This document shows, piece after piece, positions 1,710-59,673 of a stretch of 64,000 nt of DNA; the stretch's first letter is position 1; the number at the start of each line of letters is the position of its first letter. This DNA comes from a virus. The position numbers were made by a program, and so were the translations under genes. The notes beneath the pieces were generated by a model. It was not told where the DNA came from. It made no database searches and worked only from the letters and a program-made list of their open reading frames with translations. The DNA lies in IMG/VR virus record IMGVR_UViG_3300043429_000212, positions 1 to 64,000 of that record; one strand, 5' to 3'.

Positions 1710-2291
1710 ATGACACGCGAAGACTGGCTTACCACCCTGATCGAAGAGGTCAGGCCCCTTTTCCCCGCCCACACTGGGCAGTCCCTCCCCGCCCGCATCC
1801 GCGTCGCCTGCGGATTCCCCAGCAGCGCCCGCCGCAGCGGCGCGATTGGCGAGTGCTGGGCTGATGCCTCCAGCGCGGACGGCACGGTCGAGATCCTCAT
1901 CTCGCCGGTCCTGGACGACGTCACCACGGTGGCGGCGACCCTGGTGCATGAACTCTGTCATGCCCTGCCGGGTTCGATGAACCACTCGAAGACCTTTGCG
2001 ACCCACGCCGCCAACATGGGTCTGGCCCCCGGCGCCAAGGGCTGGAAAAGCACCGGCCCTGGCCCCGACTTCGACGCCCGCTATGGGGCGATCCTGGGCG
2101 CCCTGGGCGCCTACCCGCATGCGCAGTTGATCCTGTCGGCGAAGCCGGCGCAGACCACTCGCATGCTGAAGGCGACCTGCCCGTCTTGCGGGTTCACGAT
2201 CAGGCTGACCCGCACCTGGGCCGAGAAAGGTCTGCCCATCTGCTCCCAGGATGGCGAGCAGTTCGTCCTTGAGTCCAACGACGGAGAGTGA
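1710..2291 (+). CDS. SprT-like zinc metalloprotein
   Basis: 193 residues from ATG 1710, chosen because AGGAGG (1698-1703) sits 6 bases upstream; a longer frame starting at 1683 has no such signal. Residues 79-93 read LVHELCHALPGSMNH, with H80-E81-x2-H84 as the HExxH zinc site and H92 as a possible third ligand. A C157-x2-C160 pair with C178 suggests a small zinc ribbon at the C-terminus, as in SprT/Spartan-like proteins. Family members include DNA-protein crosslink proteases and uncharacterised phage relatives. It is the first gene of a rightward operon and is followed 4 bp later by an AAA+ ATPase and a VWA protein that also carries HExxH. Proteolytic activity is likely but unproven. Confidence 0.7.
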   Translation: MTREDWLTTLIEEVRPLFPAHTGQSLPARIRVACGFPSSARRSGAIGECWADASSADGTVEILISPVLDDVTTVAATLVHELCHALPGSMNHSKTFATHAANMGLAPGAKGWKSTGPGPDFDARYGAILGALGAYPHAQLILSAKPAQTTRMLKATCPSCGFTIRLTRTWAEKGLPICSQDGEQFVLESNDGE

Positions 2292-2295
2292 CCCA

Positions 2296-3792
2296 ATGAA
2301 CACCCGAGTCCTTCAGACCCTCCTAGCCCTGCCCGGGGCACAACTCGCCCGGGCCGCAAATGCCATCTGCGGACCTGCCGAGCGGACCAAGGTCGAGGCC
2401 GCGCAGGCCCTCGCGCAGAAGGTTTCACATGGAACAGTGAGCATGGACGACGTGCGGCTAGCGGCATCGAGCACGCCCCTCCAGCCGCCCGCCATGCCCG
2501 TCACCCTGGGCAAGCCGCAGCCCGCCTTCCAGCCGCCCCGCCCCTCCACTCCCCAGGCCGATCCCCGCATCGAGGCGACCGCCCAGGTCGCTGCCCGGAC
2601 CGAGGCGGAGGTTCTCAGCCTCGCCACCGAGGTCCGGACGATCAAGGGAAATCTGGTCGGCGTCGCTCAGGCAGTGGCCCAGGCCAAGGTGCTGGCCGAG
2701 GCATCAGACCGCGCCTCGGCCACCATCATGGCCGGGATCAAGGCCGAGATCGAGGCACTGCGCGATGCTGGCCCGGAGATCAGGACCGAGATCGCCGCCC
2801 AGGTGCGGACGGCACTCGCCCCCCTGATCGCCCAGGCCACGCCGGAGACGGCCCCGGCCATCGTCGCTGCCACTGCGGCGCCTATCGGTCGGGCTAGCTG
2901 CATGCATGCGTTCGGCGTCGACCTGCGCGACGCCCAGGGCGGACCAGTGATGGTCGATCTTTGGGACGACCCCGAGGCGGAGAGCATCGACCCCGCCTAT
3001 ATCTGGACCGAGTCCCTCCTGCGGCGCCTGATCCTGGGCACCGAGTCCAATGTGTGGCTAGGTGGCCCGAAGGGCACGGGCAAGAGCGAGGCCCTGCGCC
3101 AGTTCGCCGCCCGCACCGGGCGACGCTTTGTGCGGATCAACTTCCGCAAGTACAGCACCCAGGAGGACTACATCGGCGCCACCGGCCTGGACGCGGGCAA
3201 GACGGGCTTCCAGCCCGGCCCCTTCCTGCGGGCCTACGTCCACCCGGGATGCGTGATCCTGTTGGACGAGGTCAGCAACACCGACCCCGGCGAACTCGCC
3301 CCGCTCAACGGTCTTCTGGAGCCCCGCGCCGCCGTCACCATCGGCGGGTCAGTCTGGCGCCGCGCCTCGGGCGTGTTCATCGCTGCCGCAGACAACACCC
3401 TCGGCACGGGTGACCAGTCGGGCCGCTATGCCGGCACTCGGGGGATGAACAGCGCCCTCATGGACCGGTTTGGGCTTGTCTCGCGCATGGACTACCTGCC
3501 GCGCAGGCTGGAGACGGACGCGCTGGTGCGCCATACAGGGTGCTCTCAGGCCCTCGCCGATCATGTGATGGACGCGATCCAGGTCTGCCGCGCCAAGGTC
3601 GATACCGGCGAGGTCATCGATGCACCGTCAATCCGCAGCGCGGTGGCATTCATTCGCGCCCTGCGACTGATGCCAGTAGATGAAGCCTGGGCCGACACCA
3701 TCGTGGCCCGCCAGCCGGTCGAGTCTCACCCGGCACTAGCAGCCGTTTACACGGCGACCATCAACCACGACACGATCAAGGGGGCACTGTGA
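2296..3792 (+). CDS. MoxR/CobS-type AAA+ ATPase
   Basis: 498 residues from ATG 2296. Residues 1-215 are Ala/Glu-rich and helical. The AAA+ core then shows Walker A GPKGTGKS (about 257-264), Walker B VILLDE (320-325) and a sensor/arginine-finger region around NSALMDRFGLVSRMDYLP. This is the AAA_5/MoxR pattern, close to CobS-like proteins found in phages. MoxR ATPases work with VWA-domain partners as metal-insertion or remodelling chaperones, and the next gene is such a partner, overlapping by 4 bases (GTGA). True cobalt chelation is unlikely because no cobalamin pathway is present. The target is unknown. Confidence 0.85.
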   Translation: MNTRVLQTLLALPGAQLARAANAICGPAERTKVEAAQALAQKVSHGTVSMDDVRLAASSTPLQPPAMPVTLGKPQPAFQPPRPSTPQADPRIEATAQVAARTEAEVLSLATEVRTIKGNLVGVAQAVAQAKVLAEASDRASATIMAGIKAEIEALRDAGPEIRTEIAAQVRTALAPLIAQATPETAPAIVAATAAPIGRASCMHAFGVDLRDAQGGPVMVDLWDDPEAESIDPAYIWTESLLRRLILGTESNVWLGGPKGTGKSEALRQFAARTGRRFVRINFRKYSTQEDYIGATGLDAGKTGFQPGPFLRAYVHPGCVILLDEVSNTDPGELAPLNGLLEPRAAVTIGGSVWRRASGVFIAAADNTLGTGDQSGRYAGTRGMNSALMDRFGLVSRMDYLPRRLETDALVRHTGCSQALADHVMDAIQVCRAKVDTGEVIDAPSIRSAVAFIRALRLMPVDEAWADTIVARQPVESHPALAAVYTATINHDTIKGAL

Positions 3793-5330
3793 TCGACACC
3801 ATCAAAGCCCTGCTCGGGCGCCCGAGCATCCTGGGCTATCAGGCCCGGCACGGGCTGGAGACTTTCGCCCACGTCGCCTGCTCGGCCCTGGGTCTGCCAC
3901 CCGTCCGGGTCCAGTGGGAGGCCGGCACCATGACTGCGGCAATCAACCGGCACGGGGATCTGATCCTGAGCGATATCCCCGACGATGCCCAGGTCGCCCG
4001 CAAGCAGTTCGCCCGCTGGGTCGGTTTTGTCGTGCATGAGTTGCTGCACAGGCGCTACACCGACTTCGGCGCCCACGACGGGCGTCAGTATGTTGACGCG
4101 CTGCACAACGCCATCGAGGACGCATGGATTGAGTCCCAGGCTATCCGCTCGGGACTGCTCGGCAATATCCGGGGGGTGTTGTCGGAACTGATCGACGGCA
4201 TGACCACCGATGCCCTGGGGCAGGTGGCCGACTGGTCCGACCCTAAGCAGTACCCCTACAGCCTCGCCGTGTTTACACGCCCCCATGCGAGCATCAAGGC
4301 CCCGGTGCCTGGAACCCTGCTCCCCATTTGGCAGGAAGCCGCTCGCCGGGTCACCCAGGCGCAGAGCAGCGCCGATACCCTCGCCATCGCCCGATGGGTC
4401 TACGATCAACTGCGCCTCCCGCCGCACAAGCAGCAGCAGCAACAGCAGCAGCAAGCCGGCCAGGGCGACGGTCAAGGGGACGGGCAGGGCGACGGGCAGG
4501 GGGACGGCCAGGAAAGCCCCCAGGCGCCTGATGCCGGGTCTGCCAAGGTGCCTTCCCCTGGGCAGGAAGCGGCTGACGTCGAGCCCGGCATGGAGGGTGG
4601 AGGCGGCGCCTCATTCGGGCCCACTGGGGTGCTGCCCCGCGCCGGCCTGACCAGCAGTGCCCGGTGGACCGATACATCCCCCGTGCCTGGGTCGCTGAGG
4701 TTTCAGATGCGCCGCCTCCTGGAGGCCAGCGCGACCGACGATATGGAGTCGCACCGACTGTCGGGAAACCTGGACACTCGCCGCCTCGCCGCCTCGGCCT
4801 GGACCGGGCGAGTCTTTGCCCGCCGCAGCGAAGAGGCGGGGATTGATGCCGCGGTGATCGTCCTGGTCGACATGTCCGGGTCAATGTCTGGCGAGCGGGC
4901 GAAGGTCGCGGTCCCCGCTGCAATGGCCCTGCTCGAAACAATCGAGTCTGCCCAGGCGCAGAGCATGGGGGTCGCGTTCGGGGACAACGTGGGCCCCTTC
5001 AAGACCTGGACCGAGACGGTACGCCGCATCGCCCCCCAGGCCGCCCGCCTCGCCATCGACGGCGGCACGAACGATGCTTTCTCGATCCGTTGGTGCCACG
5101 ACCAACTGTTGCGCCACCCGGCGCCCAGGAAGGTGCTGATCGTCCTGACTGACGGCGTCGGTGATATGCGCGAGGCCCGCAACCAGATCAAGGCCGGCAC
5201 TCGGCTCGGGATCCGGACCATTGGCATTGGGATCCAGGCCGACGTTCAGCAGGTGTACGGCCAGGGATCGCCCAACGTCGTCGCCCTGCCTGACCTTGCC
5301 AAGGTCGCCTTTCGGAGTGTCACCAAGTGA
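3789..5330 (+). CDS. CobT-like VWA-domain protein with HExxH N-terminal domain
   Basis: 513 residues, GTG start overlapping the ATPase stop (GTGA). The N-terminal domain holds H83-E-L-L-H87 inside VVHELLHRRYTDF, as in VWA proteins with a metallopeptidase-like front half. A linker follows with a run of eight Gln (about 215-222) and repeated GQGD (about 225-242). The C-terminal VWA domain has a complete MIDAS: D361-M-S363-G-S365, a Thr in GGTND and the Asp in VLTDG. With the upstream MoxR-type ATPase this forms the classic MoxR-VWA pair, here preceded by a SprT-like protein. Role in infection unknown; a chaperone or remodelling system acting on a metal-dependent or virion target is the best inference. 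Confidence 0.8.
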   Translation: MIDTIKALLGRPSILGYQARHGLETFAHVACSALGLPPVRVQWEAGTMTAAINRHGDLILSDIPDDAQVARKQFARWVGFVVHELLHRRYTDFGAHDGRQYVDALHNAIEDAWIESQAIRSGLLGNIRGVLSELIDGMTTDALGQVADWSDPKQYPYSLAVFTRPHASIKAPVPGTLLPIWQEAARRVTQAQSSADTLAIARWVYDQLRLPPHKQQQQQQQQAGQGDGQGDGQGDGQGDGQESPQAPDAGSAKVPSPGQEAADVEPGMEGGGGASFGPTGVLPRAGLTSSARWTDTSPVPGSLRFQMRRLLEASATDDMESHRLSGNLDTRRLAASAWTGRVFARRSEEAGIDAAVIVLVDMSGSMSGERAKVAVPAAMALLETIESAQAQSMGVAFGDNVGPFKTWTETVRRIAPQAARLAIDGGTNDAFSIRWCHDQLLRHPAPRKVLIVLTDGVGDMREARNQIKAGTRLGIRTIGIGIQADVQQVYGQGSPNVVALPDLAKVAFRSVTK

Positions 5331-19268: not shown

Positions 19269-19591
19269 CCCGAGAAGACATCCTCAAGCTGGCGCGGGTG
19301 GTTGGATTGCGTAGTGCAGTTTTGCTGCACATATACGATGGCAAAGAAGGGGCGCTGACGGACCAAGAACTGGCCGAGTTGCAGAGGCTTGAACGCTTCT
19401 TCCGGCTGGCCTACGAGTCCGGTGCCGCAGCAGAGCGCGAGGCAATCAGCGACGAATACGCTGCCCGTTTACAGGGTGATCTGGAGAACGGTGTCCGCCG
19501 GCTGAATGAGGCGGCTGCATCGGAGTTCCACAAGAAGTACCCGCAGCTTGCCAGCTTCAACGCATGGCTGAATGAAAGGGGGAACACATGA
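19265..19591 (+). CDS. hypothetical helical protein
   Basis: 108 residues from ATG 19265 (AGGGGGAAC upstream within the previous gene). Helical, with ESGAAAEREAISDEYAARLQ in the centre, loosely related to the EREACAKVC family. One Leu is coded by TTA within a copy of the dispersed word. Function unknown. Confidence 0.55.
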   Translation: MTREDILKLARVVGLRSAVLLHIYDGKEGALTDQELAELQRLERFFRLAYESGAAAEREAISDEYAARLQGDLENGVRRLNEAAASEFHKKYPQLASFNAWLNERGNT

Positions 19592-19869
19592 CCCAAGAAG
19601 ACCTAGAACGCTTCGCCGCCATCGTCGCCGCAGCCCAACGCGAGAAAGTCGCCCACTGGATGCGCAGCATGGGCTATGCCACCGGGCATGGCGACACGAT
19701 AGAGGATCTGCTGGACCACCTCGGCACGCAGATTGCGGAGGGGTTGCTGACGGAGCGTGAGGCGTGTGCGAAGGTGTGTGAAGACACCACTGCGGCATGG
19801 ACACAGCCTGTCTACAACGGAGCATGTATGGATTGCGCCGCCGCCATCCGCGCGAGGGGGAACAAATGA
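19588..19869 (+). CDS. EREACAKVC-family protein, copy 2
   Basis: 93 residues; the most complete copy: TEREACAKVCEDTTAAW then GACMDCAAAIRARGNK, giving four Cys that could bind a metal. The DNA around its 3' end (AGGGGGAACAAATGA) is nearly identical to that of copy 1. ATGA overlaps on both sides. Confidence 0.6.
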   Translation: MTQEDLERFAAIVAAAQREKVAHWMRSMGYATGHGDTIEDLLDHLGTQIAEGLLTEREACAKVCEDTTAAWTQPVYNGACMDCAAAIRARGNK

Positions 19870-20105
19870 AGGAATCAATTACCAAAGCCTTGGAGCAAGG
19901 GTTTGCAGATCAACGATGGAGTATCGTTGGTTATGGCGGTTCTTGGGCTAGGGCCATAGCCCCGCTACAGCAATACATTGAACACAAGGTGCGTAAGGCA
20001 GTGATGGCAGAGCGCAAGGCGTGCGCCGACATCTGCGACCAGCACGCCAGCATCGAGGGTATTGCGCAAAAGTGCGCAGCAGAAATCAGAGCGAGGAACA
20101 AATGA
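19866..20105 (+). CDS. EREACAKVC-family protein, copy 3
   Basis: 79 residues with AERKACADICDQHASIEGIA and KCAAEIRARNK, a diverged third copy. The N-terminal 45 residues are unrelated to the other copies (SIVGYGGSWARAIAPLQQYI), implying mixing of modules. Function unknown. Confidence 0.55.
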   Translation: MKESITKALEQGFADQRWSIVGYGGSWARAIAPLQQYIEHKVRKAVMAERKACADICDQHASIEGIAQKCAAEIRARNK

Positions 20106-20275
20106 GACGCCGCATTCGCAGGATCAAAGACCACCTGTATCCCTGGTACATCTACGCCGCAAGGCGGCGCAAAGCGTGGGCAAAAGCATGGGGCAGCTAC
20201 AAGACCCTGAGCGAGGCACTGCGCGAGGCGCATGAGGCATACACGAGGAGCAGGAATGAACTACCTCCCCAATGA
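20102..20275 (+). CDS. small basic protein
   Basis: 57 residues, ATGA overlap. Very Arg-rich start (MRRRIRRIKDHLYPWYIYAA) then a helix rich in Lys/Ala. Could bind nucleic acid or membranes; no family recognised. Confidence 0.5.
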   Translation: MRRRIRRIKDHLYPWYIYAARRRKAWAKAWGSYKTLSEALREAHEAYTRSRNELPPQ

Positions 20276-20453
20276 CACAGCCCGCTGCGCCGGGGCACAC
20301 AAGACTGAGTGCGAAGACTGTCTGAGAAACATCAAGGTCAGCCCGCTGCACCCCGACGCATTCCGCTCTGTTTGGATTGGCCCGTGGGTGATGGATACGC
20401 CTTGTATTTCCAAGTTGACCAAGGAAAGAGAGAAATATGAGCAGCCACGCTGA
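20256..20453 (+). CDS. conserved Cys-rich phage protein
   Basis: 65 residues from ATG 20256 (AGGAG 5 bases upstream). Starts MNYLPNDTARCAG and has C-x6-C-x2-C (HKTECEDCL), a small zinc-like cluster typical of a recurrent phage accessory protein. Function unknown. Overlaps its neighbours by 20 and 17 bases. Confidence 0.6.
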   Translation: MNYLPNDTARCAGAHKTECEDCLRNIKVSPLHPDAFRSVWIGPWVMDTPCISKLTKEREKYEQPR

Positions 20454-20682
20454 TAACTTCATTGATGAAGGCGTAGTAAAGGCCATCAAGCACTACGCAC
20501 AATCACCAATCGGGACTGTCGCGGTGCTGTCCGAAGAAGTTGGAGGGCTTGTCCTCGTGGGCAAGTGGATATCAGCTAACAAACTTGGACCGCCGTTTGA
20601 GTTTGTGAGTAAGGACGAATGGAAAAACCTGCAAGCGCCGGACACACCCAGCATATCCAAAATGGAGGACAAAAAGAAATGA
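20437..20682 (+). CDS. hypothetical protein
   Basis: 81 residues. A helix, a Gly/Val-rich strand pair (VAVLSEEVGGLVLVGKWISA) and a short tail. No family recognised. Base composition drops toward A/T near its end, as in the following gene. Confidence 0.5.
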   Translation: MSSHADNFIDEGVVKAIKHYAQSPIGTVAVLSEEVGGLVLVGKWISANKLGPPFEFVSKDEWKNLQAPDTPSISKMEDKKK

Positions 20683-20948
20683 ACCAAGAAAATATATCTG
20701 CCAAGTTAAATGCTTGGCAACAAGCAAACCCCTGGTTTGGTAAAGATATAAAAGCTACACATATAGTTTTATCTTTTCACCTCGGGCTACTAGAGTCTGG
20801 CATAGAGGCCGACAGTGATGAGTACTTCAGCAAACTTGATATTCAAATAAGCCTAGCGAAACAGCTAGGCATCTTAAAGATAAAGCAGCCCAGTAATCGA
20901 TCTCAGACAAATCGCAGACCACGAAAAAAAAGGTGCAAAGCAGCGTGA
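20679..20948 (+). CDS. stand-alone scaffold C-terminal-like protein
   Basis: 89 residues from ATG 20679. Residues 10-55 read AWQQANPWFGKDIKATHIVL then GLLESGIEADSDEYFSKLD, matching the phage's own scaffold protein (gene at 58747), which has AWQEANPWFG...EIHNELERDGMPLGSEEYFNRID. That module of the scaffold is normally near its capsid-binding end. The rest is a basic tail (NRRPRKKRCKAA). The DNA is clearly more A/T-rich than neighbours, hinting at separate acquisition. It lies with early accessory genes, not with virion genes. A modulator of capsid assembly or an anti-phage/satellite-derived decoy are inferences. Confidence 0.65.
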   Translation: MNQENISAKLNAWQQANPWFGKDIKATHIVLSFHLGLLESGIEADSDEYFSKLDIQISLAKQLGILKIKQPSNRSQTNRRPRKKRCKAA

Positions 20949-21184
20949 GATGTCCGCACTGCAACAAGGAAGGTAAGTCAACGGTTCTAGAGAGCCGTCC
21001 TTACGATGGGCAGGTCTGGCGCAGGCGCATGTGTCCCAAGTGTTTAAAGACGTTTGTTTCATGTGAAACAGCGTCGCCGGACATGAAGATGCCGGCACAG
21101 ACCCAGTCCAAACACAGGCTGAAAGACCGGAAGATTAAGCCGGAACAGCACAACCTTAGATGGAGAAGCAATGAGCGCGAATAA
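20945..21184 (+). CDS. zinc-ribbon protein, NrdR-like front
   Basis: 79 residues from GTG 20945 (GTGA overlap); a GTG 12 bases earlier is also possible. VRCPHCNKEGKSTVLESRPY and RRRMCPKCLKTFVSCE form a C-x2-C...C-x2-C ribbon very like the N-terminus of NrdR and of phage Ogr-type regulators. There is no ATP-cone domain. Likely a small transcription regulator. Basic C-terminal tail. Confidence 0.65.
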   Translation: MRCPHCNKEGKSTVLESRPYDGQVWRRRMCPKCLKTFVSCETASPDMKMPAQTQSKHRLKDRKIKPEQHNLRWRSNERE

Positions 21185-21494
21185 CAGTGGCCCCAGCCAC
21201 TACAAGGACAAGACCATACAGCCGTGGGACTTCATCATCGCCCTGAACCTCAACTACCTTGAGGGGAACGTCGTCAAGTATGTCTGTCGGTGGAGGCAGA
21301 AGAACGGCATCGATGATTTAAACAAGGCAAAGCACTACCTTGAGAAGCTCATCGAGGTAGAGTCCAAGAAGCCAAAGTCCAAGAAGACCGTCGCAAAAGC
21401 CAATGAACAACAAGCTAAACGCCGCCGAAAGAGAGCATCTCCAAAGGATCAAGGAGATGCCGTGCGAGGTCTGCGGGGCACATGGGCCATCTGA
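21171..21494 (+). CDS. DUF3310 protein
   Basis: 107 residues, GGAG before ATG. Residues 9-62 have the DUF3310 signature: SHYKDKTIQPWDFIIALNLN, YLEGNVVKYVCRWRQKNG, DDLNKAKHYLEKLIE. This small domain is widespread in phages and sometimes fused to nucleotide kinases or MazG-like parts; its function is not known. The last ~30 residues overlap the HNH gene and look like out-of-frame sequence. Confidence 0.8.
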   Translation: MSANNSGPSHYKDKTIQPWDFIIALNLNYLEGNVVKYVCRWRQKNGIDDLNKAKHYLEKLIEVESKKPKSKKTVAKANEQQAKRRRKRASPKDQGDAVRGLRGTWAI

Positions 21495-21663
21495 TGCTCA
21501 TCACATCAAGCAGGGGCTCCAGTACCTGTGCATACCCTTGTGTAGAGACTGCCATCAGGGCAGTTTCAACGGCATTCATGGGCAGGCCAGGATCTGGGCC
21601 GTCTACAAGAAGGACGAGATGTCCGTCTTGAATGACGTCATTGCCCGCTTGACATCTTCTTGA
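21403..21663 (+). CDS. HNH nuclease of the Ref type
   Basis: 86 residues. MPCEVCGAHGPSDAHHIKQG, then LCRDCHQGSFNGIHGQARIW: two Cys pairs, the H-H of the HNH site and the HGQ-x-R/M-W end match the catalytic domain of the phage P1 Ref recombination endonuclease and related small phage nucleases. Ref cuts DNA at RecA-made D-loops. The gene overlaps DUF3310 by 92 bases at the start and the convergent polyvalent gene by 26 bases at the end. Confidence 0.75.
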   Translation: MNNKLNAAEREHLQRIKEMPCEVCGAHGPSDAHHIKQGLQYLCIPLCRDCHQGSFNGIHGQARIWAVYKKDEMSVLNDVIARLTSS

Positions 21664-24600
21664 TTTGCTGGATGTTGGAGGCCAACTGGTTCTCCAACGT
21701 CGTGATGTTGAGGATGATGTCCTTCTTCTGATCCGCATCCATGTTGGACGCCCGGACGAAGTTCTTCATCTCCCGGTACTGCTTCATGGACTTCTCAAGA
21801 TCGAGGACGTAGTCCTTGACAGCGAACAGTCCCTTGTTCTCCTGGAAGTACTCACCCCACTCCTGGGGTTGCATGTTCCTCTCCAGGAGGTTGACCGTTC
21901 TCACTGCCTCATCTACGGAGTTCTTCAACTCATAGAAGGCAGTGACCTGTCCTCGTGCCTGGGGATCTACCAGGAACCTCTTGATCACCGGCATCTGTTC
22001 AAACCGCTTTGCCGCCTTCGGGGCATCGCTGTTCATGTCGTAGATGGCGTCGAACAGATCCACCATGTATCCACCGATAGTGCCGGTGTATCCATTGATG
22101 AGTTGGTCCAGCTTCACCGGGGAGATCTGAATGCCTGTGGGCAAGTCCTTCGTTGCCCCGCCGATCAGTTGAGACAACCGAGATGTCGTGGGTCCAACCT
22201 GATAGGCCGGGGCCACATCCTCCAGGCCCTGAGACACGATAGGTCTCGTGGTGAAGAAGGAGAAGTTCGTCGCGTACTCGATGACCGGCAGAGCCGTCTG
22301 AGGGATCGGGTTAAACGCAAGGGTGCTCATCAACTGCCGGGTCATGGACTTCATAAAGTCCTTCCCGGTGTCGTCACCAAAGCTGTACTCAAGGATCCGC
22401 TCCGGGATGACCTTGAACAGCACACCGATTTCAAACGGGATGGGGATCTTCACACCCAGAGACGGGATCAGCCAGTAGTTGTCCCGGGTCTCCTGCTCTT
22501 GCCTCTTCCACTCATCATCGTCGCTAGCAAGCATCCAGTACATGGTTGACAATGCTGCGATGGTCATGCCACGGACGAAGAACCTCTTCTGCACTTCCTT
22601 CGGATCAATGTCAGATCCCTTGGCGAATGCCGCCCGGTACAGGACATCAAGACCCTGCATCCGGGCATTCAAGAAGGGAACCGCTGCGGTGAGAACCCGG
22701 ACCATCGGGTTGCTGCCCTTGCGGTTGAAGTTCATCACCTCCAGGGCTCTGAAGATGGCTTCTGTCTCGTTCCCAGTCTCAGCCAGGGTCTTCTTGTAGA
22801 TCTCCATCCGGGTTGCCGCATCAGATGCGGTAGTTCCCTTCTCCAGGGCATCCCAGAGCGAGGTGAACGGACGGGTCAGCCTCTCAGTGGTCGTGTAAAC
22901 ATTAGCTTCCTTGCGAAGCTCCCTGTTGAAGCGATTGGCACTGATCTCTACTCCCTGGGAGTAGTCGTACCCTCCGATGACGCCGGAGTTCAGGAGTGCC
23001 GCGTACTCAGGGTTCTGTCCTCTCAGAGCCTTGCCAAAATTTGTCAATGTATCGACCAGCGGTGTCATGTTTACACCGGAGGACACCCAGGCAGACATGG
23101 AGTCCCGCATCATGTTGGCAAGCATGAAGGCGGGATCCTTGGTGACCAGACTTCTCAGCAGGTTGGCTGGGGCAGACAGAAGACCAATGAACGGCAGGTC
23201 TCCCAGGTTCAGGCTCTTCAACGCATCGATGAACAGAGGATCCTGAGATGAGTAGTAGGTGGCCTTGCCCTTCTCCAGGATCTTGACCACGTTCGGGGCA
23301 GAGGACACGTAGTTGAGCCTCTGAACCTGATTGATGGCCTGGGCGACGTTGACGGCCTTCTGAGCCGCAGCGTTCTTCATGCCCGCTTCGATGGAGTACT
23401 GGACGTTACGGATGACAGTCTCAAGGAACTCCCCGAGAGGTGCCTCTGATCCCTTGGTCTTCTTGGGAGGCTTCACCCCGGCAAGAGATGCAAAGATCTG
23501 CGGGCCGACCGTCTGCTCCCCGTCGATCTGACGATAGAAGGGAATGTAGTCGGAGTACTTCACAAACTCCTTGGCAGCATCCTCCGTCAATACCCCGGTG
23601 TCCAGCAGATACTTGACGAGACCGTTATTGAACTCGATCCATTCCTTCTGGATGCCGTCAAACTCAGGATGGTCTTGCAGGATCTTTGCAGCTTCCGCCT
23701 GATCAGCCGGGGTGATGAACTTCGGATCCCGTCCTTGACCATACAGCCGCAGACCTCTGTTTACAGCAGCCCAGAACTGATACTTCTGGTAGATGAAGGG
23801 ATCGTTGTACTTCGCCAGCGGGGCGAAGATGGCGAGCGGACCCTTGACCGTGTTGTTGTTGTTGACAACCTCGGTGCGCCCGTTGATGTAGACCGGGATA
23901 CCACCGACCCGGTCATGCACCCCCATAGCTGCGGCCAGAACACCGGCACTCATATCAGACATGAGAGCAGCAGCCTCTGCGCTTGAGTCGGCAAGTAAAG
24001 GTGCCCCGCCCATCTGGCGGACAAGCTCCTTGTCATACTCGCCCAGACGGTTGTAGCGGTTGAGGAACATCGCCCGGAAATGAGAGGCACTCTTCGGGAA
24101 GATGGCCTCCGTGATCCGCTGTATAAACGTCTTCTCTTCTCGGGGCGTGGTAGTTTGATCAATGCGAGCCCGGGTGGCAGGATCGGTCTGATCCCGCAGG
24201 TTCATGCGCGGGCCTTCACGCAGGCTTGGCTTGGCAATCGGGATAACCTTCTTGCCTTGCTTGATCTTTTCCTGATCTCGGATGATGACGGTGTCTCCGT
24301 CGCGCTGACGGTCGTAGTCAACGAAGAACCCGTCGTACCTGATGGCAGCATCCTCTGGCCGGCCAGTCCTGTCCTTGTTGGTCAGGCCAATGATCATGCC
24401 CTTGTTGAACAGGTTTTCCTTCTGACCGGGCCTCGGGTCAAGGAAACGAGCGTCGTAGTTGTCTCCGTTCCAGACCTGGAACTTCTCACCAGTCTTCTCA
24501 TCCAGCAGAAAATCTGGCATGTCTTTCTTGCTGGTGAAAGCCATCGCCACGTTGAAGCCGTTGTTTAGACGCTTGATCATGGCGTTCCAGTTGGAGCCAA

Positions 24601-27600
24601 GACCCACCGTCTTTCCTTCGACCACCTGAGCGACACCATCCGAGCTATAGGTCAGATGGTGGTTGTCTGCAATCGGACGCGGCGTTGCCAGCTTGGTGTA
24701 GTCATAGAACCTTACGTCCGGGAAGCCATTGATCAGCGGGGCCAGCATCTTCGGCGGGAAGTCGCTGGTCACGTTCAGCCGGATAGCTGGGGTGTAGACC
24801 TGCTTTTTAACGCGACTTTTTTTCCCTTTCTCATCCGTGACGGTCTCGAAGCCCTTGTCGCTCTTGGCCCACGCCTCAAACCGCTTGATCTCCTCATACA
24901 GGACAATGCCGAAGTCCTCCGGGTGCATCACCAAGGCTTCAGTCTTCAAGTACTGAGACAGGCGCGGGCCGGCGCGGAACGGACCTTCCCCACCATACAG
25001 TTCGTTCTGGCCGCTGGTCTCGCCCAGGCACAGACTCTCGCACCGGGCAGAGTTGGGACAGGTAGACAGGTTGTTCTCGTTGATCTTCTGGGCACTTGCC
25101 AAGCCAAGACCAAGAGAAGCAACGCTGTTCTCGATGTCCTCTGGAAGCTGGTATTCGTTTAGACGGGTCTTCTGTAGCTTGCCGTTCTCTCCAAGAAGAG
25201 TGCCGACGTTGTGCTCTTCCTTGAGGACTTGTCGAGCCTGGGCCAGCCTAGCCCTGCGCTGCTCCGGCGACATCTTGCGATAGGCATCAATGCCAGACTC
25301 CAGGCCCTTGCCGATATCGCCGATGGTCGTGGTCTTGGTGACAGCCTCGCTGCGCGGCTTGTAGAGCGTGAACAGCTTGGTCATCTTCATCTTCTCGGCA
25401 AAGGCGTTACCCTCCGCGAGTTGGATGAAGAAGTCCTTGCGTCCGTCTGCGTGCTCCATGTCGAACTGAAGCAGTTCAGGCCGAACATGAACCATCACGT
25501 TGGCTTCGACCGGGCCTTGATCGATGTTCCCAAGCCTACCCCGAACAGCCGCAGGGCTGGATTCGTTGGTCAGGTAGATCCGGTTGGCAGTCGGATTGAC
25601 TGCCTTGAGCCTCTTGGTCTTCGCCACCTCACGCGCACTGGCGTTGTTGGTCGGGAAGTACAAGGTCACAGTGCCATTGGCATTCAACGGCACTCCAAGG
25701 ATCGGATGGTTCTCCTTGCCCTTGGCTAGCTTGCGCTCCGAATATGGAGCCTTGATGGAAGCCTTGGGCGTTTCAACGGGAACATCGATCTGGCCGGCGG
25801 AGGTGTAAGGAAGAATGCCGTTCTGATCCTCGTAAGCCTCTGCCTGCTCCTTCTCCTCGGTCGTCTCCTTCCAGACGTTGGGAGCAACCTCCCGCCCGCG
25901 AAGCTCTCCCCTCTCAGCCTTGCGGAAGATCCGCTCGGCATCAGGCTCAGCACCGAACGCTTCCTTGATGGCCTGGAAGAAGTTACGTATCTTCTTCAGA
26001 AGAGCCTGGAGCATCCCAGGAGGAGCCTTGGTCGCATCGAAGTCAGCGAACGCATCAGCGATAGCCTCTTCAATGACAGCCTCTTCATCCCCGCCGTACA
26101 GCCTCATGTAGGCGTCGTACCGGGATGTCTGTCCTTCTTTCAGAGGCTGTCTGTTTACATTCTTCTGCTTCAGGTACTGATCGATCCACTTCTCTTTGGC
26201 TTGTCTCTCAAGAGCCGTCCACTGCTGATCAGAGAAGAGCCCAAGAACCTTCATGGCATGGATGGACTCATGCCTCAAAGCCACTACAGGATCTTCCGCA
26301 TCGAGTGCCAAACTGATGACCCGGGCAGAGTACTCACCCTCTGCCTTGAGATCAGCCACTAGCTTGAGGGCAACATCCTTCAAGCCATAACGCGACATAA
26401 TCCTGGTGAGAGCCTTGCCCAGAATGTCAATCTTGGCCTGGGTCTCAGGAGAAACCTTCTTGGGTTCTGAAACCTCTCGGACGGAAGCCTTCTCTGCCGG
26501 GGCCATCTCCTTGCGGATCTCTTCCACAAGATCCGAAGAACTGGTCCAGTTGTCCCATGCGGCCTTCTGCTGACGAAGCTCCTTCTCCCGCTTCTTGAGT
26601 GCCTCGGGATCCTTGATGTCGATCCCTTCCTTCTTGGCAATCTCAGGTCTGCGGCTGGCCCCGGAGATAGCTGCCAACCTCTGAGCGATCTGGTTCTGCT
26701 TGAGGGTGGCGATCCTCGCCATGTCCTCGGCTTCCTTCATGGCCGAGTCATCGAACCCGAAGAGATCACCACCATCAGAAGGCGGCTGGTCCTTGGAGAT
26801 CGTTTGAACAGCCTTGATAAGGTTTACAGCAGCAAGAGGACTCTTGCCCTCTTGGATAGCCTTCAGGCCAACGGCTTGGAGTCGGGAGTCTCCAGGGGCT
26901 GCGTTGGCGATTGCTGCTGCTCCTGCATCAGAGATGACATCGGCACGATGCGCCGCAACAAGCTCTGGACTACCTCTGGTGGCGATTGCGAAACCTTGCT
27001 TTCCCGGAGCCCGCGCCAGAAGTCCTCTTGACTCGGCATCTGCTTCTGAGATTCCTGCGTTTTCGAAGTAGGCGACATAGTCTTTTACCTTTCCTTGCTG
27101 ATCCCGGATGTTCAGTTCAGCATCCAGCATCGCCGCCTGCTTGGCATCGAAACCAGTAGCCTCTTCATGGATCTGCGCAGGGATGGTCGTCTCCCCGCTG
27201 CGTCGCGCCAGATCCAACCTGTGCCGGCCAGAGATAACCTCCATCCGGCCATCGTTTCGCTTCCAGACCTGAATAGGAGCAACACCGCGCCGGTCGAACG
27301 TGCCTCCAAGAGGCTCTACAACTCCCTTGGTATCAGCGTCAGACTTGAACTGCGGGACATCCTTGGAAAGGATCAACTCAGACAGAGGCGCTTCAATGAC
27401 CGGAAGCCCGCTCATGGCAGATTGCTCAGGCTTCTTTTCAGCCTGGAGCGCATCTTGCGCAGCCTCTTCCTCCTCCTTGGTGACAGCCTGTGCAGACTCA
27501 ACAGGCTTCTCCTCGGGCTTTTCCTCCGCAGGCTTTAGCTCTTCAGTAGGCTTTACCTCTTCGGCAGGCTTCTCTTCCGGCTTCTCGCCGGCAGGCTGTG

Positions 27601-28948
27601 TAAACAAATCTTCCGGAGCAGCCTGCTCTTTGGTGATCTTGCTTGACTGGATCTGTTGCAGCACAGCCATCCGCTGTTCCGGAGGGACAGACATGGCGTA
27701 GGCTTTTGCCTGATCCAAAGTGCCTGCTGTTCCATCCGGGAGACGGTAGAGATCCTCTCCCTCCGTCCCGGCTGGGACGACTGTCGGAGCGGTAGGCTCG
27801 GCTATCGGTTGCGTCAGGGGATTGGGAATCTGCTCCCGCTGGCGGGCAGCATCGATCTCACGGCTCAGACGCCTTGCGAAATCAGCATCAGACTCACCGA
27901 CCTTCTGGCCGGGAAGCAGGTTGCCTGCCGGCCTTGGAGCGGAAAGACCACCGCCCAGGACCGCCCCGGCAGCACCTTCCATAGCAGCCGCACCAAACAC
28001 ACCCTGGAACAGAGGAACATCAAACCCCTCGTTCCTCAGAGCAATGTTCTCTGCGAGCTTGGACTGACCAGCCTGGGCAAACTCAGGGGCACCTTCCCTA
28101 AACGCACCCAGGCCAACCCTTGAGGCAAACCCACGCTCTGCTTCTCTGAGAGCCTGAAGCTCTGCCGCCTCGGATGCGGCACGCTTGCTCAGCATCCCCG
28201 CCAGAGGCTTCTCGATACCCATCCCGCCGGCCAGTGCCCCAAGACCACCAGCAACAGCCATTGACGGAAGGTTGGCACTGCTGTAAGCCTGGGCTTCCTG
28301 AGCCTTGGCTTCAGCTACCTCGTCAGAGGCGCCCTTCTGTTTATACGCTTCCTTGACGGATTCGTAGATGGATCCCTTGACCTCACCAACGCCCATAGCA
28401 GCGCCGATGGCAGGCATGGCAACGGCACCAACACGGGCAGTGCCAAGCAAAGCACCAACAGGACCAGATGCCAACCCGGCAATGACGACCGGGGCAGTGG
28501 ATCCAAGGGCTTGGGACAGCGTGTCTACGGGAGCAGTAAGGAATGCCTGGAAGCCAGCCTTGACCTGATCCAGAACACCCTTGTCTTCAGCATCCTTCAG
28601 GATCTGAGCAACCTGCCGCTGGTCATTCTTGGCCTGCGCGGACAGAAGATCTGCCAGCCATGTGTCGGCACTCTTCAGTGCCTCTGAGGCAGAGGATCCA
28701 GCCCCGAAGACGTCAGCCAGCATCCGAATGCCGCCGACCATACCCCGAGAAACCTGGACAGGAACGTCCAGGACTTGACGGAAGAAACCACTTTGCTCAG
28801 GCTGCGGGACAGGCGGGGCAGTGACGGTCTGAGGCGTATCCTGCATACGCGCCTGGATCGCCCGGATGACCTGCTCTCGCGTAGCCCCGGGAGGACCTTC
28901 AATGGAATACGTCTTGCCGTCAGGCCCTTGGATGCTGTACAGGGGCAT
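21638..28948 (-). CDS. 2,436-residue large polyvalent / internal virion protein
   Basis: Start ATG 28948 with AGGAA upstream. Visible parts: residues 1-35, a small MPLYSIQGPDGKTYSIEGPP domain common at the front of such proteins; about 100-340, Ala/Gly-rich hydrophobic helices; about 510-610, a ParB/sulfiredoxin-like domain with ISGRHRLDLARRSG; about 890, an ALRHESIHAM metallopeptidase-like HExxH; about 1290-1470, a Cys-rich domain TCPNSARCESLCLGE, like gp88-type phage domains; about 1640-2330, a long helical region resembling the LPD38 polyvalent-protein domain. Such giants are packaged and injected, carrying activities into the host. It is the last gene of the leftward virion operon. Each activity is inferred from motifs only. 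Confidence 0.8.
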   Translation of the reverse strand: MPLYSIQGPDGKTYSIEGPPGATREQVIRAIQARMQDTPQTVTAPPVPQPEQSGFFRQVLDVPVQVSRGMVGGIRMLADVFGAGSSASEALKSADTWLADLLSAQAKNDQRQVAQILKDAEDKGVLDQVKAGFQAFLTAPVDTLSQALGSTAPVVIAGLASGPVGALLGTARVGAVAMPAIGAAMGVGEVKGSIYESVKEAYKQKGASDEVAEAKAQEAQAYSSANLPSMAVAGGLGALAGGMGIEKPLAGMLSKRAASEAAELQALREAERGFASRVGLGAFREGAPEFAQAGQSKLAENIALRNEGFDVPLFQGVFGAAAMEGAAGAVLGGGLSAPRPAGNLLPGQKVGESDADFARRLSREIDAARQREQIPNPLTQPIAEPTAPTVVPAGTEGEDLYRLPDGTAGTLDQAKAYAMSVPPEQRMAVLQQIQSSKITKEQAAPEDLFTQPAGEKPEEKPAEEVKPTEELKPAEEKPEEKPVESAQAVTKEEEEAAQDALQAEKKPEQSAMSGLPVIEAPLSELILSKDVPQFKSDADTKGVVEPLGGTFDRRGVAPIQVWKRNDGRMEVISGRHRLDLARRSGETTIPAQIHEEATGFDAKQAAMLDAELNIRDQQGKVKDYVAYFENAGISEADAESRGLLARAPGKQGFAIATRGSPELVAAHRADVISDAGAAAIANAAPGDSRLQAVGLKAIQEGKSPLAAVNLIKAVQTISKDQPPSDGGDLFGFDDSAMKEAEDMARIATLKQNQIAQRLAAISGASRRPEIAKKEGIDIKDPEALKKREKELRQQKAAWDNWTSSSDLVEEIRKEMAPAEKASVREVSEPKKVSPETQAKIDILGKALTRIMSRYGLKDVALKLVADLKAEGEYSARVISLALDAEDPVVALRHESIHAMKVLGLFSDQQWTALERQAKEKWIDQYLKQKNVNRQPLKEGQTSRYDAYMRLYGGDEEAVIEEAIADAFADFDATKAPPGMLQALLKKIRNFFQAIKEAFGAEPDAERIFRKAERGELRGREVAPNVWKETTEEKEQAEAYEDQNGILPYTSAGQIDVPVETPKASIKAPYSERKLAKGKENHPILGVPLNANGTVTLYFPTNNASAREVAKTKRLKAVNPTANRIYLTNESSPAAVRGRLGNIDQGPVEANVMVHVRPELLQFDMEHADGRKDFFIQLAEGNAFAEKMKMTKLFTLYKPRSEAVTKTTTIGDIGKGLESGIDAYRKMSPEQRRARLAQARQVLKEEHNVGTLLGENGKLQKTRLNEYQLPEDIENSVASLGLGLASAQKINENNLSTCPNSARCESLCLGETSGQNELYGGEGPFRAGPRLSQYLKTEALVMHPEDFGIVLYEEIKRFEAWAKSDKGFETVTDEKGKKSRVKKQVYTPAIRLNVTSDFPPKMLAPLINGFPDVRFYDYTKLATPRPIADNHHLTYSSDGVAQVVEGKTVGLGSNWNAMIKRLNNGFNVAMAFTSKKDMPDFLLDEKTGEKFQVWNGDNYDARFLDPRPGQKENLFNKGMIIGLTNKDRTGRPEDAAIRYDGFFVDYDRQRDGDTVIIRDQEKIKQGKKVIPIAKPSLREGPRMNLRDQTDPATRARIDQTTTPREEKTFIQRITEAIFPKSASHFRAMFLNRYNRLGEYDKELVRQMGGAPLLADSSAEAAALMSDMSAGVLAAAMGVHDRVGGIPVYINGRTEVVNNNNTVKGPLAIFAPLAKYNDPFIYQKYQFWAAVNRGLRLYGQGRDPKFITPADQAEAAKILQDHPEFDGIQKEWIEFNNGLVKYLLDTGVLTEDAAKEFVKYSDYIPFYRQIDGEQTVGPQIFASLAGVKPPKKTKGSEAPLGEFLETVIRNVQYSIEAGMKNAAAQKAVNVAQAINQVQRLNYVSSAPNVVKILEKGKATYYSSQDPLFIDALKSLNLGDLPFIGLLSAPANLLRSLVTKDPAFMLANMMRDSMSAWVSSGVNMTPLVDTLTNFGKALRGQNPEYAALLNSGVIGGYDYSQGVEISANRFNRELRKEANVYTTTERLTRPFTSLWDALEKGTTASDAATRMEIYKKTLAETGNETEAIFRALEVMNFNRKGSNPMVRVLTAAVPFLNARMQGLDVLYRAAFAKGSDIDPKEVQKRFFVRGMTIAALSTMYWMLASDDDEWKRQEQETRDNYWLIPSLGVKIPIPFEIGVLFKVIPERILEYSFGDDTGKDFMKSMTRQLMSTLAFNPIPQTALPVIEYATNFSFFTTRPIVSQGLEDVAPAYQVGPTTSRLSQLIGGATKDLPTGIQISPVKLDQLINGYTGTIGGYMVDLFDAIYDMNSDAPKAAKRFEQMPVIKRFLVDPQARGQVTAFYELKNSVDEAVRTVNLLERNMQPQEWGEYFQENKGLFAVKDYVLDLEKSMKQYREMKNFVRASNMDADQKKDIILNITTLENQLASNIQQIKKMSSGQ

Positions 28949-58304: not shown

Positions 58305-58754
58305 TCATTGACCGCGTCCGAACGACACTTCGGAACGACGCTGTTTGAACAGCGGCATCCGGGGATCGTTCTCGCGCATGAAGGTGTTGTCCACAGACTC
58401 CATCTGCCCCGTCGCCTGACCGGTGTAGAAGGCATTCCGTTGATCAACGAGTTCTTTGGGGGTTCGGCAAAGCAGCAGGCCACCAACCTCAATACTGCCA
58501 GGAAGACGAGGCTTGTCGTCGCACTGGTGAGCATATTCAGGATGATCTGCAACCTTGACAGGTTCCCAGCCTTCGCGGATCTTGGAGGAAATGTTCCGAG
58601 GGTCGGCTACACCCAGGGTGCTGACACGAATCCAGCGGTATGCGTAGTTGGGATCCTTGGGAGGTTCCGGCAACAGGTCAGCAGGCATCCACGTCTTGGG
58701 ACGTTCTGCCTTGGCACGCGACTCAAGTTCGCGGGGGGTTCGTTGGTCAGCCAT
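58305..58754 (-). CDS. conserved head-region protein
   Basis: 149 residues, GAGGAAAG upstream, 8-base overlap with the scaffold stop. Has WMPADLLPEPPKDPNYAYRW then IRVSTLGVADPRNISSKIRE, and GGLLLCRTPKELVDQRNAFY; this layout is common between scaffold and capsid genes. No enzyme motif. Probably involved in head assembly. Confidence 0.65.
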   Translation of the reverse strand: MADQRTPRELESRAKAERPKTWMPADLLPEPPKDPNYAYRWIRVSTLGVADPRNISSKIREGWEPVKVADHPEYAHQCDDKPRLPGSIEVGGLLLCRTPKELVDQRNAFYTGQATGQMESVDNTFMRENDPRMPLFKQRRSEVSFGRGQ

Positions 58755-59673
58755 TTTCTTTCCTCATCTGTTCCGCTACTGCCCGGGCGTACTGTTCGGG
58801 GGTAAGCCCGAGACGCTTGGCGACGTTGACCTGGGACTGCGTCAGCACGATCTTTTTGGGCGCTGTGCTTCGCGTTGCCGGGGCAACTACAGATGACTTC
58901 CTCTTCTCCTGGGGGTACGCACCAGGAAAAATGGACTTCATCTCTGAGTCGATACGGTTGAAATACTCCTCGCTGCCGAGGGGCATCCCATCCCTTTCAA
59001 GCTCATTGTGAATTTCCATAGCCACAGCGGTCATCCGCTTGTTAGACCCAAACCACGGATTGGCTTCTTGCCACGCACGGGTTTTGGCATCTAGCTGCGG
59101 CGCCGCAGGCTGCGGGGGCGTTTGTACAACATTTTGTTCCTGCTGTAAAGGCACAGGGCGGAACGCGGCGAGTTTCTCGGCCTTCAGCTTGGCAGAGAAA
59201 AGCTCTTCCTGAGCAGCGAGGATTGCTTTTGCATCCCCGTCCTCATAAGCCTTCTCATACTTCTTCCGGGCGGATTCCAACTCACCTTCGACAGCCTTCT
59301 TGGCCTGCTCCACTGCCACTTGCTGGCTTTGACCAGCCGACTTCTGGAGCTTCTGGTTCTCTTCCAGGAGTTTCTGGGTGAGACGAAGTGCCTCCTCCCT
59401 CTCCCGAAGAGCAGCCTCTTTGGCCCGCCGCTCCTCGTGGTAGCCCTTGGAGAAATGCTGGATGCGCTGTTTGACGCTCTCGCTGTACTTGGACAGTTCG
59501 TCGTCGGTGACATCCGCCGGGGCCTCCTTCATGGGGGCTCGGTTTTTGTCTGCGCTGGGGGTGTCATCCACCACCTCGACCTCGGTATCGTTGTTCTCGA
59601 TCTCGAAATCGACCTTCTCTTCCTTGGTGTTCACCGGCACTTCGTCCGGGAACTTGAAATCTTCTTTGTCCAT
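58747..59673 (-). CDS. scaffold protein
   Basis: 308 residues. Acidic N-terminus, a long coiled coil (about 70-170), a Gln/Pro linker, then AWQEANPWFGSNKRMTAVAM, EIHNELERDGMPLGSEEYFN, RIDSEMKSIFPGAYP (about 198-250) and a basic end with LTQSQVNVAKRLGLTPEQYA. This is the usual scaffold layout, with the C-terminal part expected to touch the capsid protein. The NPWFG module recurs in the early gene at 20679. Removed or recycled after shell assembly. Confidence 0.75.
   Translation of the reverse strand: MDKEDFKFPDEVPVNTKEEKVDFEIENNDTEVEVVDDTPSADKNRAPMKEAPADVTDDELSKYSESVKQRIQHFSKGYHEERRAKEAALREREEALRLTQKLLEENQKLQKSAGQSQQVAVEQAKKAVEGELESARKKYEKAYEDGDAKAILAAQEELFSAKLKAEKLAAFRPVPLQQEQNVVQTPPQPAAPQLDAKTRAWQEANPWFGSNKRMTAVAMEIHNELERDGMPLGSEEYFNRIDSEMKSIFPGAYPQEKRKSSVVAPATRSTAPKKIVLTQSQVNVAKRLGLTPEQYARAVAEQMRKENG

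Follow-up and report, generated by a model that had tools for sequence, protein, structure and literature searches.

A free-standing NPWFG module among the accessory genes of a phage and its homology with the scaffold-like protein of the same phage

The SaPI1 protein CpmB, an internal capsid size-redirecting scaffold encoded by a satellite, has a C-terminal RIIK motif in common with the scaffold of the helper and, according to the excerpts of PMC5644958 at hand, competes with it; a capsid mechanism based on a small protein with a scaffold motif is therefore possible in principle. The scaffold-like head proteins of HTVC023P- and HTVC027P-type phages and their relatives (phrog_28737) carry a module recognizable by the residues NPWFG, for which a literature text search returned only unrelated papers. 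The excerpts of PMC9599517, which deals with HTVC023P-type phages, mention the capsid and neither a scaffold nor DUF3310. The latter is a domain of T7 gp1.7 and is reported, in excerpts of PMC10700055, to be linked to nucleotide kinase activity. In our searches, T7 gp1.7 was assigned to DUF3310 and is itself without the NPWFG module (profile score, 0.8 bits).

The gene considered here lies in the window, i.e. the whole stretch of 64 000 nucleotides that was analysed (positions 1 to 64 000 of the 65 080-base virus record IMGVR_UViG_3300043429_000212). At 20679–20948 on the plus strand, an open reading frame (ORF; protein P0001) encodes 89 amino acids made up of an NPWFG module (residues 6–57, 20694–20849, +, as delimited by the similarity ranges) and a basic tail, a description that draws on its translation, on homology within the same genome and on an AlphaFold2 model. 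Its translation contains no internal stop, the other two forward frames across the same stretch are stop-rich, and a ribosome-binding-site-like GGAGGA (20664–20669, +) is found approximately 9 nt upstream. Sixteen residues precede NPWFG, and the key residues of the module (W13, N17, P18, W19, F20, H34, G41 and Y49) are kept. As the first-pass annotation had stated, the gene is located in the plus-strand accessory and early gene region.

Both neighbouring genes overlap the ORF by 4 nt, the preceding one through a shared ATGA and the next one through a shared GTGA. The former (20437–20682, +) encodes 81 amino acids and has no assigned function; its relatives were sought in viral contigs and none was found. 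The latter (20945–21184, +; in the ORF list from 20933), whose GTG start overlaps the stop of the ORF, encodes an NrdR-like zinc-ribbon protein (Pfam Zn_ribbon_NrdR, 37 bits). A gene for a DUF3310 protein of the T7 gp1.7 family (21171–21494, +; Pfam DUF3310, 49.7 bits) follows on the same strand, approximately 220 nt and two genes downstream of the ORF. Near the end of the ORF is an A8 run (20924–20931); the 64-kb window contains just one other homopolymer of 8 bases. A −1 slip on the A8 run would join the NPWFG protein to the zinc-ribbon frame, and the stem downstream of it is unremarkable (z −1.39). A promoter scan of 19500–21800 returned sites no commoner than in shuffles, none of them on the plus strand. 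Elsewhere in the window, we noted a phage protein that bears the C-terminal domain of ribosomal protein L7/L12 (6752–7132, +; Pfam), an AAA_5 ATPase gene adjoining a VWA/CobT-like gene in an arrangement that resembles a MoxR/CobS-VWA pair (2251–5330, +; Pfam), and an ORF of 2436 amino acids (21638–28948, −), convergent to the accessory genes.

Only two places in the 65 080-base record carry the module, namely this ORF and a gene (58747–59673, −) for a scaffold-like protein of 308 amino acids, found between the portal-side genes and the gene for the major capsid protein. The scaffold label is a prediction drawn from gene order and relatives; the protein matches phrog_28737 (E 1.3e-26), a family that carries no assigned function in PHROG, and was also modelled with AlphaFold2. 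The first-pass annotation had claimed that the ORF matches the module of this protein (58939–59094, −), and homology is indeed clear: the two are 38% identical over residues 6–57 of the ORF (E 7.5e-12 in a search of the whole record), and phrog_28737 matches both, the ORF at profile positions 218–274 (E 7.9e-8), inside the match of the scaffold. Pfam and NCBIfam returned no convincing family for either protein, and the module has no entry in either collection. By tblastn, the ORF also matched isolate phages; in the three of the matched records for which gene context was established (OR003939, MN698241 and MN698239), the match is a gene in scaffold position, between the GroES and capsid genes. 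Weak tblastn matches in Listeria and Persicobacter had E-values of 0.7 to 0.8. Although its module is homologous to that of the HTVC023P- and HTVC027P-type proteins, the ORF product has neither the acidic N-terminus nor the long coiled coil that precede the module in the scaffold-like protein, and its gene is outside the head operon, on the opposite strand and approximately 36 kb from the side of the major capsid protein gene.

In the AlphaFold2 model of the ORF product (42 sequences; mean pLDDT 82), helices span residues 3–16, 24–39 and 47–63, and the blocks covering residues 11–60 reach mean pLDDT values of 90–95, the tail being less sure; the module is thus confidently modelled as a three-helix unit. 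The model of the scaffold-like protein (pTM 0.27) comprises a long coiled coil including a helix at 65–145, then the module, here too as a group of short helices (196–204, 212–228 and 235–248), and a C-terminal helix pair that is separate from the module. Structure searches of BFVD and the PDB (the ORF model reaching a Z of 3.5 at most) and sequence searches of the PDB returned no informative relative, and the structural matches of the scaffold model were discounted as generic helical hairpins.

Past the module, the residues QISLAKQLGI(L) (20844–20876, +) resemble both the conserved C-terminal motif of the scaffold (IVLTQSQVNVAKRLGLTPEQYA; 58786–58851, −, placed by alignment) and the linker of an early phage protein, L428, described below; indeed, the blastp alignment with L428 extends beyond the module into a common A-x-x-LG stretch. 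HMMER gave the tail only 3.3 bits against the scaffold motif LTxxQVxIAKRLG, with 14 of 2000 shuffled tails equally good, and an ungapped position-specific matrix gave a shuffle p of 2e-5 for a motif window that was picked post hoc. Because the two methods differ in strength, the likeness is kept as tentative: QISLAKQLGI may preserve a second short scaffold-like motif, a possible trace of the AKRLG motif of the HTVC023P- and HTVC027P-type proteins.

The composition of the ORF is foreign, and the gene is absent from the relatives examined. Its GC content is 40.7%, the second lowest among 2125 windows of 270 bp, and its GC3 is 37.8% as against 57–71% in the five nearest genes, in agreement with the first-pass description of an A/T-rich gene with a basic tail. 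At the syntenic locus of G001, the closest relative in which the region could be compared (scaffold identity, 83%), a homologue of the gene at 20232–20453 is directly followed by the zinc-ribbon gene and then by an HNH-like gene; the ORF, the 81-aa gene and the DUF3310 gene are all missing there. In three other relatives (G005, G007 and G009), DUF3310 is present and the ORF is not. When 25 records were searched with a profile, each of the other 24 gave a single module place, the scaffold, and no free-standing copy; eight of these 24 records exceed 54 kb, and virus records may be fragments.

The annotators had also called the gene a copy of the phage's own scaffold module, and here the homology stood while the idea of a close copy did not. 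Among 409 module frames, in a ranking without L012 and L122, which come from the window itself, the best blastp match of the ORF was the early protein L428/L474 (66.6 bits, 49% identity, the alignment reaching the tail), 3.4 bits ahead of the best scaffold (63.2 bits), the phage's own scaffold scoring 46.6 bits. Over 46 ungapped core positions, the ORF shares 26 identities with L428/L474, 24 with the best scaffold, which belongs to another phage, and 19 with its own. In a tree of 62 columns and 83 rows (the sequences having first been thinned at 68% identity and E 1e-8, with L343 labelled as a scaffold though it bears DUF3310), the ORF was not paired with L428 when the topology was free; the AU test did not reject this pairing (p 0.47). 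Grouping the ORF with the scaffolds of its own lineage was not rejected either (AU p 0.37), and a starred branch with support 99/88 includes the phage's own scaffold and excludes the ORF. A recent duplication of that scaffold was rejected as a simple account, as the scaffolds of other phages match better and the 99/88 branch leaves the ORF out; because the AU p of 0.37 leaves the grouping unrejected, this rejection rests on similarity and composition.

The module is not confined to scaffolds. Among the matches listed (495 loci, sampled partly with patterns favouring variants unlike the common scaffold), it was found at E<1e-3 in 411 frames, 344 of which also match the C-terminal motif of the scaffold. 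Among the 380 listed frames that are complete at both ends, the module lies at residue 140 or beyond in 368 and earlier in 12: the ORF of the window (twice), L158, L354, L428, L474, L343, L437, L313, L351, L342 and L269. One of these, the 156-aa frame of L158, was rejected as a free-standing copy, since it is a scaffold interrupted by a change of frame. Four others (L428, L354, L342 and L343) share an architecture in which an N-terminal helix-turn-helix (HTH)-like stretch is followed by NPWFG and then by DUF3310; the HTH assignment comes from weak Pfam HTH_7 matches in L354 and L342, from PHROG regulator or HTH families in L428 and L342, and from inspection by eye in L343. Another frame, L346, which is open at its left end, also joins NPWFG to DUF3310. 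A local profile found DUF3310 in six of the 409 module frames among the matches listed (L342, L346, L354, L428, L474 and L343), Pfam confirming all but L474, which was assigned by the local profile alone. In L313 (which surfaced by accident in the second pattern scan mentioned below) and L351, HTH and NPWFG precede a C-terminal DUF6378 (Pfam). The family phrog_28737 finds the module in L428, L354, L437, L342, L351, L313 and L269, and ten records holding such non-scaffold carriers have one module place each; these records are short and may miss a scaffold encoded elsewhere. Since L428 adjoins a family-A DNA polymerase gene and L313 is near an ERF annealase gene, we regard these as genes of the replication region. 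In L437, which has no coiled coil, NPWFG is accompanied by a weak match to the C-terminal motif of the scaffold (E 0.1). In the frame of L343 (8749–9564, +), an HTH-like start, the scaffold C-terminal motif (E 1.7e-8), NPWFG and DUF3310 all occur in one chain, the scaffold motif preceding NPWFG, in swapped order relative to the scaffold.

The HTH-NPWFG-DUF3310 proteins (L428, L474, L354, L342, L343 and, as a partial frame, L346) hold the module nearest in sequence to that of the ORF. Like them, the window has NPWFG before DUF3310 on one strand, in an accessory and replication region; unlike them, the ORF has no HTH (no Pfam match), and DUF3310 is on a gene of its own. In viral contigs, two scans for a ribosome-binding-site-like stretch followed by ATG and NPWFG (65 and 50 stretches) revealed no other complete free-standing copy among the matches listed.

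In bacteria, free-standing copies do occur. A scan of genome contigs gave two loci, one of which (L269) is an 82-aa frame with the module alone, near an integrase and a tRNA-Ser; the SAR11 label used here for a family of 297 genomes is taken from the genome of L269. A profile search of this family matched nine places in eight genomes, corresponding to two scaffolds (L499 and L505) and seven small frames of 76–154 aa (L497, L498 and L500 to L504). When the profile was built from six SAR11 copies and the ORF, 14 of the 297 genomes matched, six being members of the profile and several others weak or partial. Searches at the class and phylum levels matched five of 385 and two of 398 genomes, respectively, a SAR11 genome being counted in both; L522, L523 and L524 are scaffold-like long frames by eye, and L525 was rejected by eye as a SecA-like chance match. 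The survey for free-standing NPWFG proteins proposed in the first-pass annotation was thus productive for bacterial genomes and, among the matches listed, not for other phages. Like the ORF, the SAR11 proteins (L497, L498, L500 to L504 and L514) have one module on a small protein; they are chromosomal, several share an ending [KE]Y[YF]S..N that is absent from the ORF, and identity is low (27% between the ORF and L501, below its similarity to the phage modules).

The settings of the SAR11 genes are split, some being in accessory islands by C5 DNA methylase or DUF2779 genes and others, such as L530 and L532, among ordinary metabolic genes. In L531 (1742–3151, −), an island-like contig, a free-standing NPWFG gene is directly before a C5 cytosine DNA methylase gene (PF00145); in L529, the gene adjoins DUF2779, with a PF00145 methylase a few genes off. 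In L506 (1–2426), an integrase beside a tRNA-Ser, a free-standing NPWFG gene, a DUF2779-like fragment and a gene family common to L528 lie next to lepA, and the region looks like an integration hot spot. The NPWFG protein of L497 (1234–1695, +), in a chromosomal setting, has a signal-peptide-like start by eye.

How far, then, does kinship with a scaffold point to capsids? The first-pass annotation had treated the module as the capsid-facing part of the scaffold and proposed that the ORF product alters capsid size or timing, or jams the assembly of competing phages. By analogy with CpmB, it would bind the capsid protein of its own phage or of a competitor through the module. Clear homology with the scaffold module, the possible second motif in the tail, the precedent of CpmB, where a small protein with the scaffold's capsid-binding motif competes with the scaffold (excerpts of PMC5644958), and the pairing in L437 of NPWFG with a weakly scaffold-like C-terminus all speak for such a role. 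However, the module also occurs in HTH proteins with DUF3310 or DUF6378 and in small SAR11 proteins with no capsid at hand, so that it cannot be regarded as scaffold-specific, an outcome that the first-pass annotation had itself named as refuting its reading; being portable, the module means that scaffold homology by itself does not point to capsids. Moreover, the capsid-touching part of the scaffold could be its C-terminal motif rather than NPWFG, the ORF differs too much from the scaffold of its own phage to be called a close copy, and, whereas CpmB is satellite-encoded (no sequence relation between the two being claimed), the ORF belongs to a phage record with portal-side, scaffold-like and capsid genes of its own and a small terminase. 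We therefore take the annotation to be partly supported, its module homology being confirmed and the apparent backing for capsid interference ending with that homology, and consider a capsid role unlikely.

No likelier, in our estimate, is that the ORF is a relic, non-functional or near-neutral, left from a recently acquired piece of a gene for either an HTH-NPWFG-DUF3310 protein or a scaffold; it would be open by chance, ending in the A8 run. Foreign composition (GC 41%, GC3 38%), occurrence in none of the 24 related records and a stop shortly past one of the window's two 8-base homopolymers would fit this, but the frame is intact, preceded by a ribosome-binding-site-like stretch and overlapped by 4 nt on both sides, and it retains the key residues of the module and a confident helical model. 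A host-interaction protein akin to the SAR11 ones, acquired for defence or counter-defence, would account for the A/T-rich composition and recall the SAR11 copies found beside a methylase (L531), near a methylase and DUF2779 (L529) or by an integrase and tRNA-Ser (L506); we hold it to be quite improbable, given that the ORF is less like these proteins than like phage modules and that several of them sit among ordinary metabolic genes.

The account to which we tentatively lean, at a little under even chances, is that the ORF is a laterally acquired, free-standing adaptor belonging to an early set of nucleotide and DNA metabolism genes and working with the DUF3310 protein. A portable three-helix NPWFG adaptor would have been acquired horizontally by the phage as a separate small gene; expressed early, to judge from its position, its product may act as a small docking subunit in an early nucleotide/DNA-metabolism complex, the docking partner probably being the DUF3310 protein. 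A docking subunit is proposed on the grounds that the closest relative of the module is the NPWFG of HTH-NPWFG-DUF3310 proteins and that a DUF3310 gene stands two genes downstream; the recurrence of the free-standing state in SAR11 genomes was also counted in favour. Counted against the adaptor are the small margin of L428 and a tree that does not place the ORF, the lack of an HTH and of fusion to DUF3310, the locus of G001, which has neither gene, and the three relatives with DUF3310 and no ORF. A broader version, which we regard as a long shot, would make NPWFG a shared docking plug with one common partner in scaffolds, early HTH/DUF3310 proteins and SAR11 proteins; the free-standing phage copy would then compete or bridge, linking genome and nucleotide metabolism to head assembly.

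What looks like a piece of a phage scaffold is thus portable, being common to early proteins with a gp1.7-type domain and to small bacterial proteins, and a small scaffold-like protein need not be a capsid inhibitor. A partner of the module found in any one of these contexts would hint at what the module does in the rest; for that search, copies that stand alone, like the ORF at 20679–20948, would be the simplest reagents.
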